Assembly: GCA_018056765.1 (NCBI GenBank)
Contig: JAGPFA010000006.1
Span: forward strand, 1-64,000
Direction of reading: 5' to 3'
Source of the DNA: Syntrophaceae bacterium
GTDB taxonomy: Bacteria; Desulfobacterota; Syntrophia; Syntrophales; Smithellaceae
Length of the DNA: 64,000 nt
Numbering within the stretch: position 1 is the stretch's first letter; each line of letters starts with the position of its first letter. Both the position numbers and the translations under genes were made by a program. Below, piece by piece: positions 32,956-37,998 of the stretch. A model generated the notes under the pieces. The model saw only the letters and a list, made by a program, of their open reading frames with translations, was not told the origin of the DNA and did not search any database.

Positions 32956-33372
32956 GTGATTATTTATGATATCAAATGTGAAAACGGTCATAAGTTCGAG
33001 GGCTGGTTTAAAGACCGCGAGGCCTGGCTGGAGCAAAGCGCGCAAAAACTTGTCTGCTGCCCGGTCTGTCACAGTGCTAACGTCGAAATAGCACCGTCAT
33101 CGATTGCCATTATGGGCAAAGGGGGAAAAAAGAAGGATGAAAGCAATAGAACACAGACCGGCTTTGTCCCCTCTTTGCAGTCCCTGCATCAGTATATCGC
33201 CGAGAATTTCGAGGATGTCGGCAGTAAATTTTCCGAAGTGGCGCTGAAAATTCACTTTGGCGAAGAAGAAAAACGAAACATCAGAGGCACAACAACCCCT
33301 GAGGAAGAAGTAACCCTCAAAGAAGAAGGTGTTTCGTTTATAAAAATCCCACTGCCGAAAATGGACAGCTGA
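32956..33372 (+). CDS. DUF1178 family zinc-ribbon-like protein
   Basis: 138 aa, unknown function. IIYDIKCENGHKFEGWF at the start and the CCPVCHSANVE pair suggest a rubredoxin/zinc-ribbon-like metal site, the DUF1178 signature. A Lys/Glu-rich middle and an acidic C-terminus follow. GTG start. No obvious operon partner. Confidence 0.85.
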   Translation: MIIYDIKCENGHKFEGWFKDREAWLEQSAQKLVCCPVCHSANVEIAPSSIAIMGKGGKKKDESNRTQTGFVPSLQSLHQYIAENFEDVGSKFSEVALKIHFGEEEKRNIRGTTTPEEEVTLKEEGVSFIKIPLPKMDS

Positions 33373-33430: not shown

Positions 33431-35776
33431 ATGTCTCATATAGAACAAAGGCCGCATTGTATGTTGAGTTCTTATAAAAGTATTATAAATCAGATCGGCA
33501 ACACCCCGCTGGTGGAGATCACCAGGCTCAATCCCAACAAAAATGTTCGGATTTTGGCCAAGCTCGAGTCGGCAAATCCCGGCGGTTCTATAAAGGATCG
33601 TACAGCACTGTTTATGATTGAGAACGCCGAAAAAAGGGGTGAACTTGATCGCAGCAAGACAATCCTTGAGGCGACCAGCGGCAATACGGGCATTGGTCTG
33701 GCCATGATTGCCGCGGCCAAAGGTTACAGACTGTGTCTGACTATGTCTGAGGCGGCCAGTGAAGAGCGGAAAAAAATCCTGCGGGCCTTCGGCGCGGAGC
33801 TACATTTTACCCCGGCAGCGCTCGGCACGGACGGTGCCATCGAAGTGGCCTACCGGATGCTGCGTGAAAACCCGGACAAGTATTTCGGCACGGATCAGTT
33901 CAATAATGAAGACAATATTGCCGCTCATTACTACGGCACGGCCCGTGAAATATGGGAGCAGACCGCCGGCCAGGTCAACATGGTTGTCGCTACGCTCGGG
34001 ACCACCGGGACGGCCATGGGTATCTCCAAAAGACTCAAGGAACTAAGCGGGCAGATCCGCATCATCGGTGTTGAGCCTTATCTGCAGCACAGGATTCAGG
34101 GGCTGAAAAATATGCGTGAATCCTACCGTCCGGGGATCTTTGACAAAAACTGTCTCGATGAAAAGGTGAATATCCTCGACGAGGACGCTTTCGAGACGGC
34201 CCGCCGGCTGGCACGCGAAGAAGGCATTCTGGCGGGGATGAGTTCCGGCGCGGCCATGTTTGTTGCCGCGGCAAAAGCCCGTGAGATGGAAGAAGGGCTG
34301 ATCGTGGTTATTTTCCCGGACAGCGGCGAGCGATACTTGAGTACTCCCCTGTTTGCTGTAAAAGAGGACCTTGCGGCGCTTGCTGTCTATAATGTTCTCA
34401 AACGTAAGAAAGTACCGTTCAAGCCGCTGCAGGCGACGCAAGTGTCCCTGCGCACATGCGGGCCGACCGTGCACGATGCGCCGCACCTGGGTAATTACCG
34501 GCGGTTGGTCGTATCGGATATTTTAAGCCGCTACCTGTCGGCGAAAGGCTACCAGGTCAAGCATGTAATTGACGTTGTAGATTTTTCCGACAAGTCTGTG
34601 CGCGGTTCGGAAAAGGCGGGAATGGACCTGGCCGATTATACCGACAAATACCTGCGTGTTTTTTTGGACGATGTCCTGTTTTTGAGTATTCGTGAGGATA
34701 ATATTTATGTTAAGGCCTCTGAAAATATCGACTTCATGCTCAAGATCGTCGAAAAGCTCGTTGACCGTGGTTATGCATACGAAAAGCTTCGTTCTGTGTA
34801 TTTTGATATTTCCAAGCTGGCCGACTATGGCGCGGTCTCCAATGTAGATTTGAAAAAGACGCGGCGGGGGAAATCCGTCGATCTGGACGATTACGAAAAA
34901 GACAGTCCGGCTGATTTCGCTCTGTTGAAAAGGATCGGTTTGGGCGAGCTCAAAAGGGGCATATATTATAAAACAAAATGGGGCAATGTCAGGCCGGGCT
35001 GGCATCTGGAATGTGCGGCGATTTCTCAAAAGCATCTGGGGACGGCCTATGATATTCACATCAGCGGGGCGGATGAAATCTTCCCCCATTGCGAGAACAT
35101 GGTCGCGATGAACAGGGCATCTTTCGGCCACAGCGGCGCCTCATACTGGATGAGCGCGGAACTGATTATGGTGGAAGGGCGCAAAATGTCCCGTTCTCTC
35201 AATAATGCGGTGACGATCGAAGATCTGAAAAAAAACGGTTACAGCGGCCGGGATATCCGCTTTTTCCTGCTTGGGGTTAATTACCGTAAACCGATAACCT
35301 ATTCACCGGAAGCACTTAAGGCGGCAAAAAACACTTTGAGAAAAATTGACACGTTTATCTGTCGGCTTGGAGCGTTGACCGACGGAGGGCAGGGTTTTCC
35401 CGATACGGACCAGCTCATTTATAATCTCCATCACGATTTTGAAAACGCACTGGATGACGACCTGAACATGTCCGGTGCCCTGGCTGCCCTGTTTGAGTTT
35501 ATCGGCCACCTCAATGTGCCTTTGACGGAAAACAAAATCAGCCGGACGGATGCCGTAAAGATTACCAAAGCGCTGGAGAAAATAAACAATATCCTTGCTG
35601 TAATGAGCTTTGAAACCAAAAGCCTCCATCAGGAGATTGCCGAGCTGGTTGAAAGAAGACAACAGGCAAGAGCGGCACGCCTCTGGGACGAGGCCGACAG
35701 AATCAGGCATAAGCTGTCTTTGTCGGGAGTGGAAGTGTTCGATAGTCCGCAGGGGACAATATGGCGTTTTAAATAG
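33431..35776 (+). CDS. Fused cysteine synthase (CysM-type) and cysteinyl-tRNA synthetase
   Basis: One 781-aa chain would make cysteine and load it on tRNA-Cys. Residues 1-310 are a PLP cysteine synthase: GGSIKDR with the Schiff-base Lys55, TSGNTG (82-87), the CysM-like TLGTTGTAMG, and PDSGERYLST. Residues about 335-781 are a full-length CysRS: CGPTVHDAPHLGN (343-355; HIGH-like), RPGWHLEC with zinc ligand Cys528, ADEIFPHCENM, KMSRS (585-589), and the CysRS-type C-terminus (EADRIR, PQGTIW). Zinc ligands in E. coli CysRS are Cys28, Cys209, His234, Glu238; here Cys343, Cys528 and His553 are kept, while Glu238 is Met557. The true start may be the ATG at 33461, which has AAAGG upstream. There is no stop between the halves. 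Confidence 0.9.
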   Translation: MSHIEQRPHCMLSSYKSIINQIGNTPLVEITRLNPNKNVRILAKLESANPGGSIKDRTALFMIENAEKRGELDRSKTILEATSGNTGIGLAMIAAAKGYRLCLTMSEAASEERKKILRAFGAELHFTPAALGTDGAIEVAYRMLRENPDKYFGTDQFNNEDNIAAHYYGTAREIWEQTAGQVNMVVATLGTTGTAMGISKRLKELSGQIRIIGVEPYLQHRIQGLKNMRESYRPGIFDKNCLDEKVNILDEDAFETARRLAREEGILAGMSSGAAMFVAAAKAREMEEGLIVVIFPDSGERYLSTPLFAVKEDLAALAVYNVLKRKKVPFKPLQATQVSLRTCGPTVHDAPHLGNYRRLVVSDILSRYLSAKGYQVKHVIDVVDFSDKSVRGSEKAGMDLADYTDKYLRVFLDDVLFLSIREDNIYVKASENIDFMLKIVEKLVDRGYAYEKLRSVYFDISKLADYGAVSNVDLKKTRRGKSVDLDDYEKDSPADFALLKRIGLGELKRGIYYKTKWGNVRPGWHLECAAISQKHLGTAYDIHISGADEIFPHCENMVAMNRASFGHSGASYWMSAELIMVEGRKMSRSLNNAVTIEDLKKNGYSGRDIRFFLLGVNYRKPITYSPEALKAAKNTLRKIDTFICRLGALTDGGQGFPDTDQLIYNLHHDFENALDDDLNMSGALAALFEFIGHLNVPLTENKISRTDAVKITKALEKINNILAVMSFETKSLHQEIAELVERRQQARAARLWDEADRIRHKLSLSGVEVFDSPQGTIWRFK

Positions 35777-35786
35777 GAATGGCCAA

Positions 35787-36611
35787 ATGAGAAAAATAAG
35801 AAAGTCAGTTATCGCCGGATCCTGGTATCCGGGGAATCCTTCCGTTCTGAGAGACGACATCGGCCTGTATCTGCAAAGAGTTCCGGATAGACAAATCCCC
35901 GGTGAGGTCATCGGCCTGATTGTGCCTCATGCCGGGTACATGTATTCCGGGCAGGTGGCGGCGTATGCCTATAAACTTGTGCATGACAACAAATACGATG
36001 TTGTAATACTTATCGGGCCGAGTCACAGGGTTGCTTTTCGCGGTGTTTCCGTATATAGTCAGGGAGGATACGAAACCCCATTGGGCGTCGTTCCTGTTGA
36101 TGAGCTTCTGGCCGCTGAAATGATGAATGCAACCGATATTATTGTGGATTATCCCCCTGCACATCAACGGGAGCATTCTTTGGAAATTCAGCTTCCCTTC
36201 CTGCAAGTGGTGTTGGGCGAGTTCAGTTTCATCCCGCTGGTGATGGGAGAGCAAAGCAGGGCAGTCTGTCGCAAACTTGCCTCGGCAATACATCAGGTGT
36301 CCCGGAACAGACGTGTACTGCTTGTGGCCAGCACAGATCTGTCGCATTTCTACGAAGATAAACGAGCCAGACTGATCGATGCCGTAGTACTCGACAGTAT
36401 TCGAAAAAATGACGCAGACGGACTGATGAAGAGCCTTGACGAGGAAAAAGCCGAAGCCTGCGGAGGAGGGCCGATGGTTGCGATGATGCTGGCCGCCAAT
36501 TTATTGGGCGCCGGCCATTCCGAGCTTCTCCAATATGCCAATTCCGGTGATATTACAGGAGATAAGAGTTCGGTTGTCGGTTATGCATCTGCAGTAATAT
36601 ACAGGGTATAA
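35787..36611 (+). CDS. amrB: AmmeMemoRadiSam system protein B (MEMO1 family)
   Basis: The start at 35787, with AGGA nine bases upstream, gives a 274-aa protein beginning RKSVIAGSWYPG. The open frame further 5' runs inside the preceding gene. Hallmarks are PHAGYMYSGQVA, GPSHR, EHSLEIQLPFLQ and the STDLSHF site, the metal-coordinating His set of MEMO proteins. The radical SAM partner (amrS) is not in the window, and the function is not established. It is followed 22 bases later by amrA. Confidence 0.92.
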   Translation: MRKIRKSVIAGSWYPGNPSVLRDDIGLYLQRVPDRQIPGEVIGLIVPHAGYMYSGQVAAYAYKLVHDNKYDVVILIGPSHRVAFRGVSVYSQGGYETPLGVVPVDELLAAEMMNATDIIVDYPPAHQREHSLEIQLPFLQVVLGEFSFIPLVMGEQSRAVCRKLASAIHQVSRNRRVLLVASTDLSHFYEDKRARLIDAVVLDSIRKNDADGLMKSLDEEKAEACGGGPMVAMMLAANLLGAGHSELLQYANSGDITGDKSSVVGYASAVIYRV

Positions 36612-36633
36612 AAATTTAAAACAAAGAGGGAAA

Positions 36634-37182
36634 ATGGAACTTACACAATCGGATAAGAAAGCACTTTTGGAAATTGCCAAAAAAGCAATTATGGCCAAGG
36701 CGGGCATCAGGGAGATTGCCAAACCGGCAATGGATCTACCTGTTTTCAAAGAAAAGAGAGGCGTTTTTGTCACGCTGAAAAAACGGGGACATTTACGCGG
36801 ATGCATCGGTTACATCAAGGCCGTCAAACCTCTGGCAGATACGGTTCAGGAAATGGCTGTCGCCGCCGCTTTTCACGACCCCCGGTTCCCCTCGCTCAAA
36901 AATGAAGAAATTAAAGATTTGAGTCTTGAAATATCCGTCCTGAGTCCACTTACCAGAGTTTCTGATGTCAGCGAAATTGAGATTGGCCGGCACGGCCTGT
37001 TTATTGTGCGCGGGCATAATTCAGGTCTGCTTTTGCCTCAGGTGGCTATCGAATACGGTTGGGACAAAGAAACATTTCTGAAAGAAACATGCCACAAAGC
37101 GGGGCTTCCTTCACGGGCGTGGAAAGAAAAGGGAACGGAGATATATGTTTTTTCTGCGGATTATTTCAGTGATAAAGAGTAG
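36634..37182 (+). CDS. amrA: AmmeMemoRadiSam system protein A (AMMECR1 family)
   Basis: 182 aa, function unknown. GVFVTLKKRGHLRGCIGY is the AMMECR1 core with its conserved Cys-Ile-Gly; LSLEISVLSPL and LLPQVAIEYGWDKETFL follow. Partner of amrB by position and in known AmrA-AmrB-AmrS sets. The radical SAM gene expected nearby is absent; a tRNA cluster follows. Confidence 0.93.
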   Translation: MELTQSDKKALLEIAKKAIMAKAGIREIAKPAMDLPVFKEKRGVFVTLKKRGHLRGCIGYIKAVKPLADTVQEMAVAAAFHDPRFPSLKNEEIKDLSLEISVLSPLTRVSDVSEIEIGRHGLFIVRGHNSGLLLPQVAIEYGWDKETFLKETCHKAGLPSRAWKEKGTEIYVFSADYFSDKE

Positions 37183-37351: not shown

Positions 37352-37427
37352 GCTGGCGTAGCTCAATCGGCAGAGCAGCTGATTTGTAATCAGCAGGTTG
37401 CGGGTTCAAGTCCCATCGCCAGCTCCA
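37352..37427 (+). tRNA. tRNA-Thr (TGT)
   Basis: 76 bases with encoded CCA. Anticodon stem GCTGA/TCAGC holds the loop TTTGTAA, anticodon TGT. Acceptor GCTGGCG/CGCCAGC. First of the conserved Thr-Tyr-Gly-Thr set. Confidence 0.97.
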
Positions 37428-37442
37428 GATGAGTATGACAAC

Positions 37443-37527
37443 GGAGGGGTTCCCGAGCGGCCAAAGGGAGCAGACTGTAAATCTGCCGGCGGAGCCTACG
37501 GAGGTTCGAATCCTCCCCCCTCCACCA
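37443..37527 (+). tRNA. tRNA-Tyr (GTA)
   Basis: 85 bases with a long variable arm and encoded CCA. Anticodon loop CTGTAAA, anticodon GTA. Acceptor GGAGGGG/CCCCTCC. Confidence 0.97.
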
Positions 37528-37549
37528 TATGCTTTTTATAGACGGATAA

Positions 37550-37625
37550 GCGGGAGTAGCTCAGGGGCTAGAGCGTCAGCCTTCCAAGCTGAGGGTCGCG
37601 GGTTCGAATCCCGTTTCCCGCTCCA
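37550..37625 (+). tRNA. tRNA-Gly (TCC)
   Basis: 76 bases with encoded CCA. Anticodon loop CTTCCAA, anticodon TCC. Acceptor GCGGGAG/TTCCCGC with one G-T pair. Confidence 0.97.
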
Positions 37626-37667
37626 GTTTATTACTTTCGGGCCCGGACCTGCATTTTTTTGTTTTGT

Positions 37668-37743
37668 GCCCACGTAGCTCAGTCGGTAGAGCACATCCTT
37701 GGTAAGGATGAGGTCACCAGTTCAATCCTGGTCGTGGGCTCCA
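37668..37743 (+). tRNA. tRNA-Thr (GGT)
   Basis: 76 bases with encoded CCA. Anticodon loop TTGGTAA, anticodon GGT. Acceptor GCCCACG/CGTGGGC. In many proteobacteria tufB follows this tRNA; here rpmG does. Confidence 0.97.
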
Positions 37744-37756
37744 GTTAAGGAGAATT

Positions 37757-37906
37757 ATGAGAAACAATATTATTTTAGCCTGTACGGAATGTAAACAGCG
37801 CAATTACACAACGACCAAAAACAAGCGCACGATGCAAAACCGCCTGGAAATAAAGAAATATTGCAAGTTTTGCCGCGGGCACAAGCTGCACAGGGAGACA
37901 AAGTAG
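37757..37906 (+). CDS. rpmG: 50S ribosomal protein L33, zinc-binding type
   Basis: Large-subunit protein of 49 aa starting [17 protein letters not shown], with a second pair CKFCRGH: the four-Cys zinc form of L33. AAGGAG precedes the ATG. It sits between tRNA-Thr and tRNA-Trp and is transcribed with them. The position is often taken by tufB in gammaproteobacteria. Confidence 0.96.
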
Positions 37907-37921
37907 CCAAAAGTGATGTAA

Positions 37922-37998
37922 AGGCCAGTAGCTCTAATGGATAGAGCGCCGGACTCCAAATCCGGATGCTGGGGGTTCGAGTCCCTCCTGGCCTGCCA
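37922..37998 (+). tRNA. tRNA-Trp (CCA)
   Basis: 77 bases with encoded 3' CCA. Anticodon stem CCGGA/TCCGG holds CTCCAAA, anticodon CCA. Acceptor AGGCCAG/CTGGCCT. It precedes secE, a common arrangement. Confidence 0.97.

Follow-up and report, generated by a model that had tools for sequence, protein, structure and literature searches.

We analyzed a 64,000-nucleotide stretch of DNA from a Syntrophaceae bacterium (the window; positions 1 to 64,000 of the forward strand of contig JAGPFA010000006.1, assembly GCA_018056765.1), in which a gene at 33431-35776 (+) encodes a cysteine synthase fused to a half derived from cysteinyl-tRNA synthetase (CysRS). Sequence comparisons led us to propose that this protein is the cysteine synthase of the organism, equipped with a CysRS-derived accessory domain that binds tRNA-Cys, and is not the CysRS of the cell. 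We assign this reading a probability of about 0.5. The role of the accessory domain is probably regulatory.

The gene reads from ATG to stop through 781 codons without interruption. A previous reading of the window made from the letters alone (the sequence-only reading) had described a single chain in which a CysM-like cysteine synthase is followed by a full-length CysRS, and our analyses bore this out, with every motif lying where that reading had placed it. The CysM-type domain covers residues 16-309 (33476..34357, +) and matches both PALP and TIGR01136 (cysKM; residues 20-308, 363.6 bits against a curated cut-off of 344.15). It contains Lys55, the lysine for pyridoxal phosphate (PLP), within NPGGSIKDR (residues 49-57), as well as TSGNTG (82-87) and GTTGT (190-194). 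The CysRS-derived half covers residues 315-781 (34373..35773, +) and matches TIGR00435 (cysS; residues 317-779, 369.8 bits against a curated cut-off of 340), with DALR_2 above its cut-off and the CysS_C tail slightly below (22.5 versus 23 bits). An AlphaFold2 model of the protein (mean predicted local distance difference test score, pLDDT, 85; predicted TM-score, pTM, 0.58) resembled solved cysteine synthases in its first half, with about 45% identity to E. coli CysM (2BHS) by structural alignment, and in its second half resembled the full length of E. coli CysRS in its complex with tRNA-Cys (1u0b; target TM-score of 0.81 over 481 columns). Model confidence was low at the N-terminus and at residues 206-223, 291-302 (the linker) and 466-481, and because of these stretches and the pTM of 0.58 the mutual placement of the two halves is unsettled in the model. 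The true start of the gene may be Met11 (33461), as homologues start nearby.

Analyses of the genome indicated that the fusion protein is its only cysteine synthase scoring above cut-off. The same was true, in the sense of the only clear cysteine synthase, for 11 of 20 genomes with the fusion, including three in which the synthetase half is dead (G476, G190 and G225). The active site of the cysteine synthase half was intact throughout: the PLP lysine, SGNTG, G-T-x-G-T and Ser271 were identical in all 109 distinct fused sequences from which our residue counts were taken. Related sequences enter these counts as if they were independent, so that the counts express contrast and not probability; positions in the synthetase half are given in E. 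coli CysRS numbering unless residues of the window protein are named. No CysE above cut-off was found in this genome. CysE was found in 8 of the 20 fusion genomes, always near a stand-alone CysK of at least 421 bits, and in none of the other 12. Based on this distribution, the fused cysteine synthase appears to be independent of CysE, and its substrate is probably O-phosphoserine rather than O-acetylserine, because genomes with the fusion as their sole cysteine synthase lack CysE. Elsewhere in this genome lies what is left of a CysK-type cysteine synthase, a broken C-terminal fragment (L145, G000:C39:51099-51410), which suggests that a CysK was lost in this lineage.

A search for a second CysRS in the genome, a check proposed with the sequence-only reading, found a stand-alone canonical enzyme on the same contig (C35:74652-76106), 40 kb downstream of the fusion and outside the window; its FPHHENE, HIGH and KMSKS are intact. 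A stand-alone CysRS was present in each of the 20 fusion genomes checked, of which 16 are single-contig, and the possibility that the fusion is the sole CysRS of the cell was thereby ruled out. The sequence-only reading had named two findings that together would count against it, a separate canonical CysRS and an absence of tRNA charging by the fusion; of these, the first is present. The genome gave 48 tRNA matches with one tRNA-Cys (anticodon GCA), and neither a second, special tRNA-Cys nor a UGA-reading tRNA that might serve the fusion was seen among them, no model specific for tRNA-Sec having been run. Fused halves had a lower mean identity to one another (42%) than did the canonical CysRS of the same genomes (52%), and were the lower in 139 of 153 pairs. 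Two CysRS-like copies in other genomes were unusual: the stand-alone CysRS of G311, which also has the fusion, was divergent (L274, C1:2514675-2516063; DVHHTNE in place of FPHHENE, KMAKS, and a long branch), and the third such copy of G511 (G511:C1:2100534-2101781) contained one in-frame TAG.

Alignment of the synthetase half with E. coli CysRS showed that both ATP signatures are present, as HLGN (residues 352-355; 34484..34495, +) and KMSRS (585-589; 35183..35197, +). The zinc ligands Cys28 and Cys209 are retained as Cys343 (34457..34459, +) and Cys528 (35012..35014, +), the latter within GWHLEC (523-528). The segment that is FPHHENE in canonical CysRS reads FPHCENM (551-557; 35081..35101, +), as the sequence-only reading had noted: the zinc-binding His553 is kept, Cys554 lies beside it, and Met557 replaces the ligand Glu238. 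In addition, Val383 (34577..34579, +) stands at the position of Thr68, which was Thr in 21 of 21 canonical CysRS and corresponds to Thr83 of MshC, the mycothiol cysteine ligase. The canonical four-ligand set is thus incomplete, and the Cys, Cys, His set that remains is MshC-like. In the window's class, position 238 was V, I, L or M and position 68 was V or I in all 45 sequences, and Cys occupied position 235 in 42; HxG and KMSxS were present in all 45 and the three remaining zinc ligands in 43. Two sequences of the class (L083 and L107) have Ser or Thr in place of the zinc ligand Cys28 as well, with KMSRS retained. Judged from these alignments, the Met557/Cys554 arrangement is a class-wide state and one stage of a decay that affects the synthetase site across the family.

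The constancy of HxG, KMSxS and the three zinc ligands in the class would also suit a second active CysRS, working beside the canonical enzyme and charging tRNA-Cys with cysteine channelled from its own CysM half. The retained tail, the TIGR00435 match above cut-off and the completeness of 15 fused sequences elsewhere for everything scored are consistent with this, and Cys, Cys and His can by themselves hold zinc, as in MshC (PMC9736012). However, we consider it unlikely. A canonical CysRS accompanies the fusion in every genome checked and only one tRNA-Cys gene was found here; Thr68 and Glu238 are gone throughout the class, two members of which have also lost Cys28, and are kept in all 21 canonical copies; the fused halves diverge faster than the canonical CysRS of the same genomes; and a charging function would leave the retention of the half in dead lineages unexplained.

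The same class-wide pocket changes (T68 to V or I, H235 to C, E238 to a hydrophobic residue), together with constrained ATP motifs, raise the alternative that in the window's class the half has changed specificity, activating another amino acid or joining an activated one to a small molecule in the manner of MshC. MshC is a CysRS relative whose zinc is held by C43, C231 and H256 together with the substrate thiol, which bears out the statement in the sequence-only reading that the protein itself supplies only Cys, Cys and His, and its Thr83, the equivalent of the Thr68 position that is V or I in the window's class, holds the alpha-amine of the substrate (PMC9736012). The window protein gave a weak match to the MshC profile TIGR03447, but at 176.4 bits this was far under the cut-off of 485.1, and the protein has the anticodon tail that MshC lacks. 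No conserved biosynthetic partner lies nearby, the neighbors being housekeeping genes in the class and unrelated genes elsewhere, and no single new substrate would fit a family in which the pocket is canonical or destroyed in other classes. We therefore regard a changed specificity as quite improbable.

Counts across the 109 fused sequences indicated how far the synthetase site has decayed: Glu238 was retained in 35, Thr68 in 46, KMSxS in 60 (and so was missing in 49), Cys28 in 92 and Cys209 in 95. On a quick tree built from the CysM half only, the minimum numbers of changes were 7 for KMSxS, 10 for HxG, 5 for Glu238 and 3 for the zinc cysteines, and the losses were repeated, because several changes were needed for each feature. 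Fourteen of the 109 sequences lacked both zinc cysteines, and only 7 of 140 catalytic positions were left in this zinc-less group.

Across the aligned sequences, the anticodon tail is the best-retained feature of the synthetase half. In E. coli CysRS, the base of G34 of tRNA-Cys is held by Arg427, Asp436 and Trp432, and by Arg423 through a water (PMC12684709). All four residues are present in the CysS_C tail of the window protein (residues 731-779; 35621..35767, +), where R743, R747, W752 and D756 correspond to R423, R427, W432 and D436. Arg423 and Asp436 were found in 109 of 109 fused sequences; position 427 was R in 102 and K in 7, and position 432 was W in 85, F in 16 and Y in 8. In the zinc-less group, the G34 contacts were retained at 56 of 56 positions, and mean identity was higher in the tail (0.52) than around KMSKS (0.39), whereas in canonical CysRS the tail is the less conserved of the two (0.41 versus 0.50). 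One zinc-less member (L164) still had a predicted fold like that of tRNA-bound CysRS. A signature of the GCN2 type, that is, catalytic loss with retained tRNA contacts, was thus seen in the zinc-less group and only partly in the window's class. The sequence-only reading had taken the tRNA-binding tail to argue that the protein still charges tRNA; this does not hold, as relatives without the zinc cysteines, HIGH or KMSKS retain the same anticodon residues. In that earlier reading, then, the two-enzyme anatomy stood and the argument from the tail to charging did not.

The connective insert contains a stretch specific to the fusion, which starts at DDYEKD (34886..34903, +) and runs to about residue 522. 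It was nearly invariant in the fused sequences (Y488, R501, K508 and G510, with Y488, K508 and G510 at 98% or more) and absent or different in canonical CysRS, and is a candidate contact between the halves. If this stretch were an interface, the half might be a structural passenger, kept only for folding or oligomerization of the CysM half and binding no ligand, which would agree with the decay of the site in many lineages and with a CysM half that is always intact. We find this very doubtful, given that folding alone would hardly explain the 56 of 56 G34 contacts in the zinc-less group and that the full length and full fold of the half have been retained.

Based on these findings, we propose that the CysRS-derived tail would still bind tRNA-Cys, and that binding, most likely of uncharged tRNA-Cys, would alter how active the cysteine synthase is or where it is located, with the outcome that cysteine production would be matched to charging demand. 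In the window's class the half may still make an adenylate, which would be an older activity beside tRNA binding; amino-acid activation is possible there because the ATP motifs are constrained. A broader form of the proposal, in which the cysteine synthase senses uncharged tRNA-Cys through a pseudo-synthetase in its own chain and uncharged tRNA sets the rate of synthesis across much of the phylum, is tentative and somewhat doubtful. The hand-over of cysteine from maker to loader suggested by the sequence-only reading could take place only where the synthetase site of a lineage is intact, and it cannot explain the retention of the half in lineages from which the site has gone.

Several observations weigh against a tRNA-binding accessory domain. 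Fifteen of the 109 fused sequences retain all the catalytic residues scored and could charge tRNA. The presence of KMSxS and HxG in 45 of 45 sequences of the window's class is more than expected without chemistry, and these motifs are constant although the surrounding region is only 58% identical. The tail residues could have been retained because the protein needs them to fold or because they touch the CysM half, and tail retention alone cannot separate these possibilities from tRNA binding, because the residues are invariant in canonical CysRS too. Finally, the case for O-phosphoserine depends on the absence of a gene, judged from 20 genomes that include a few drafts.

The sequence-only reading had also called for a survey of the fusion, which proved to be common both in the class and across the phylum. 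Near full-length collinear relatives were present in at least 113 of the 155 genomes of the class and, among the matches listed, in about 146 of 395 genomes, the latter being an even draw across the phylum; the 113 and 146 were counted by hand. An assembly error or chance frame was ruled out by collinear relatives in more than 100 genomes and by conserved synteny in the class. The phylum is Thermodesulfobacteriota, because the named fused relatives were Desulfobacterales, Desulfobulbus, Desulfocapsa, Desulfobacula, Desulforapulum, Caldimicrobium and unplaced deltaproteobacteria. None outside Thermodesulfobacteriota and unplaced deltaproteobacteria was found among the matches listed, other phyla being without even sampling. 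In four loci (L170, L172, L166 and L179) the CysRS half was not present. An apparent triple fusion in G281, a 1403-codon frame, was rejected, as the added N-terminal part looks like a spurious frame in GC-rich sequence.

In a quick tree that also took in the 21 canonical CysRS of the set genomes and the CysRS of E. coli, Aquifex and Coxiella, the fused CysRS-like halves formed one clade (Shimodaira-Hasegawa-like approximate likelihood ratio test, SH-aLRT, 100). The simplest reading is that the fusion arose once, because these halves form a single clade. The comparison also indicates that the fusion predates the zinc-ligand change, because other classes read FPHHENE, FPHNENE, FPHLENV and similar.

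Most loci of the class that were examined shared the same housekeeping neighborhood, which we take to consist of YicC, gmk, rpoZ, pyrF, rlmB, a type II secretion F-type protein and DUF1178 upstream, and nusG and rpl genes downstream. The fusion loci of other classes had no neighbors in common, and no conserved partner gene was found outside the class. An operon with a thiol or metabolite pathway was ruled out by the housekeeping neighbors in the class and the unrelated ones elsewhere. In the window, the upstream neighbor encodes a DUF1178 protein (32956..33372, +), conserved as a neighbor in the class only. Downstream and outside the fusion, Memo (AmmeMemoRadiSam B; 35676..36611, +) has an open frame that, in the extent used here, shares bases with the end of the fusion gene; the match to the Memo family begins about 120 bases into that frame. 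Memo and AMMECR1 (AmmeMemoRadiSam B and A; 35676-37182) come immediately after the fusion in the window and in roughly half of the loci of the class, and not in other classes. Five tRNA genes (Thr, Tyr, Gly, Thr and Trp; 37352-37998), tRNA-Cys not among them, lie ahead of nusG. Rfam and promoter scans of the fusion locus gave tRNAs only.

No description of a CysM-CysRS fusion was found in the open-license literature searched, and a review of duplicated synthetases names only CysRS* and MshC for CysRS (PMC9437257). The findings carry a warning for annotation: a profile can label these fusions as cysteine--tRNA ligase although some have almost no catalytic residues, and the proteins so labelled are often the only cysteine synthase of the genome. 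With canonical bacterial CysRS (E. coli 1LI5, 1LI7 and 1U0B) the window protein shares the whole fold, including the DALR domain and anticodon tail, and HxG, KMSxS and the zinc-binding Cys, Cys and His. It differs in its fusion to a cysteine synthase and in the replacement of Thr68 and Glu238, and the fused halves form a clade separate from the copies in the same genomes, with catalytic residues lost elsewhere in the family. With CysM and CysK (E. coli CysM, 2BHS) it shares the PLP site and fold, but it has the C-terminal CysRS-derived half, and CysE occurs with it only where there is also a stand-alone CysK. MshC is a paralogue of CysRS too, with a zinc site of Cys, Cys and His, but it is not fused to a cysteine synthase, and the window protein has a full CysRS tail. 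CysRS* of Desulfobacterales is a CysRS paralogue from the same broad bacterial group, whereas the fusion protein retains the tail and carries a cysteine synthase. The SepRS-SepCysS transsulfursome also couples the making of cysteine with tRNA-Cys, but its enzymes are unrelated and form cysteine on the tRNA, whereas here a PLP enzyme acts on the free amino acid.

Synthetase-derived domains with other tasks are already known. According to one report (PMC4335047), a domain of GCN2 related to histidyl-tRNA synthetase (HisRS) binds uncharged tRNA. The likeness of the fusion to GCN2 and to HisZ would be one of working only, in that a synthetase-derived domain is attached to, or serves, another enzyme; no homology is claimed, HisRS being of class II and CysRS of class I, the partner here is a cysteine-making enzyme, and regulation is proposed by analogy. 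In GCN2, the HisRS-like domain signals the presence of uncharged tRNA to a kinase, and the CysRS-derived half might likewise signal it to the cysteine synthase. If the tRNA-binding reading is true, the fusion would connect a tRNA directly to the enzyme producing the amino acid that this tRNA carries, and the natural variants, which range from seemingly intact to catalytically dead, make this idea testable.
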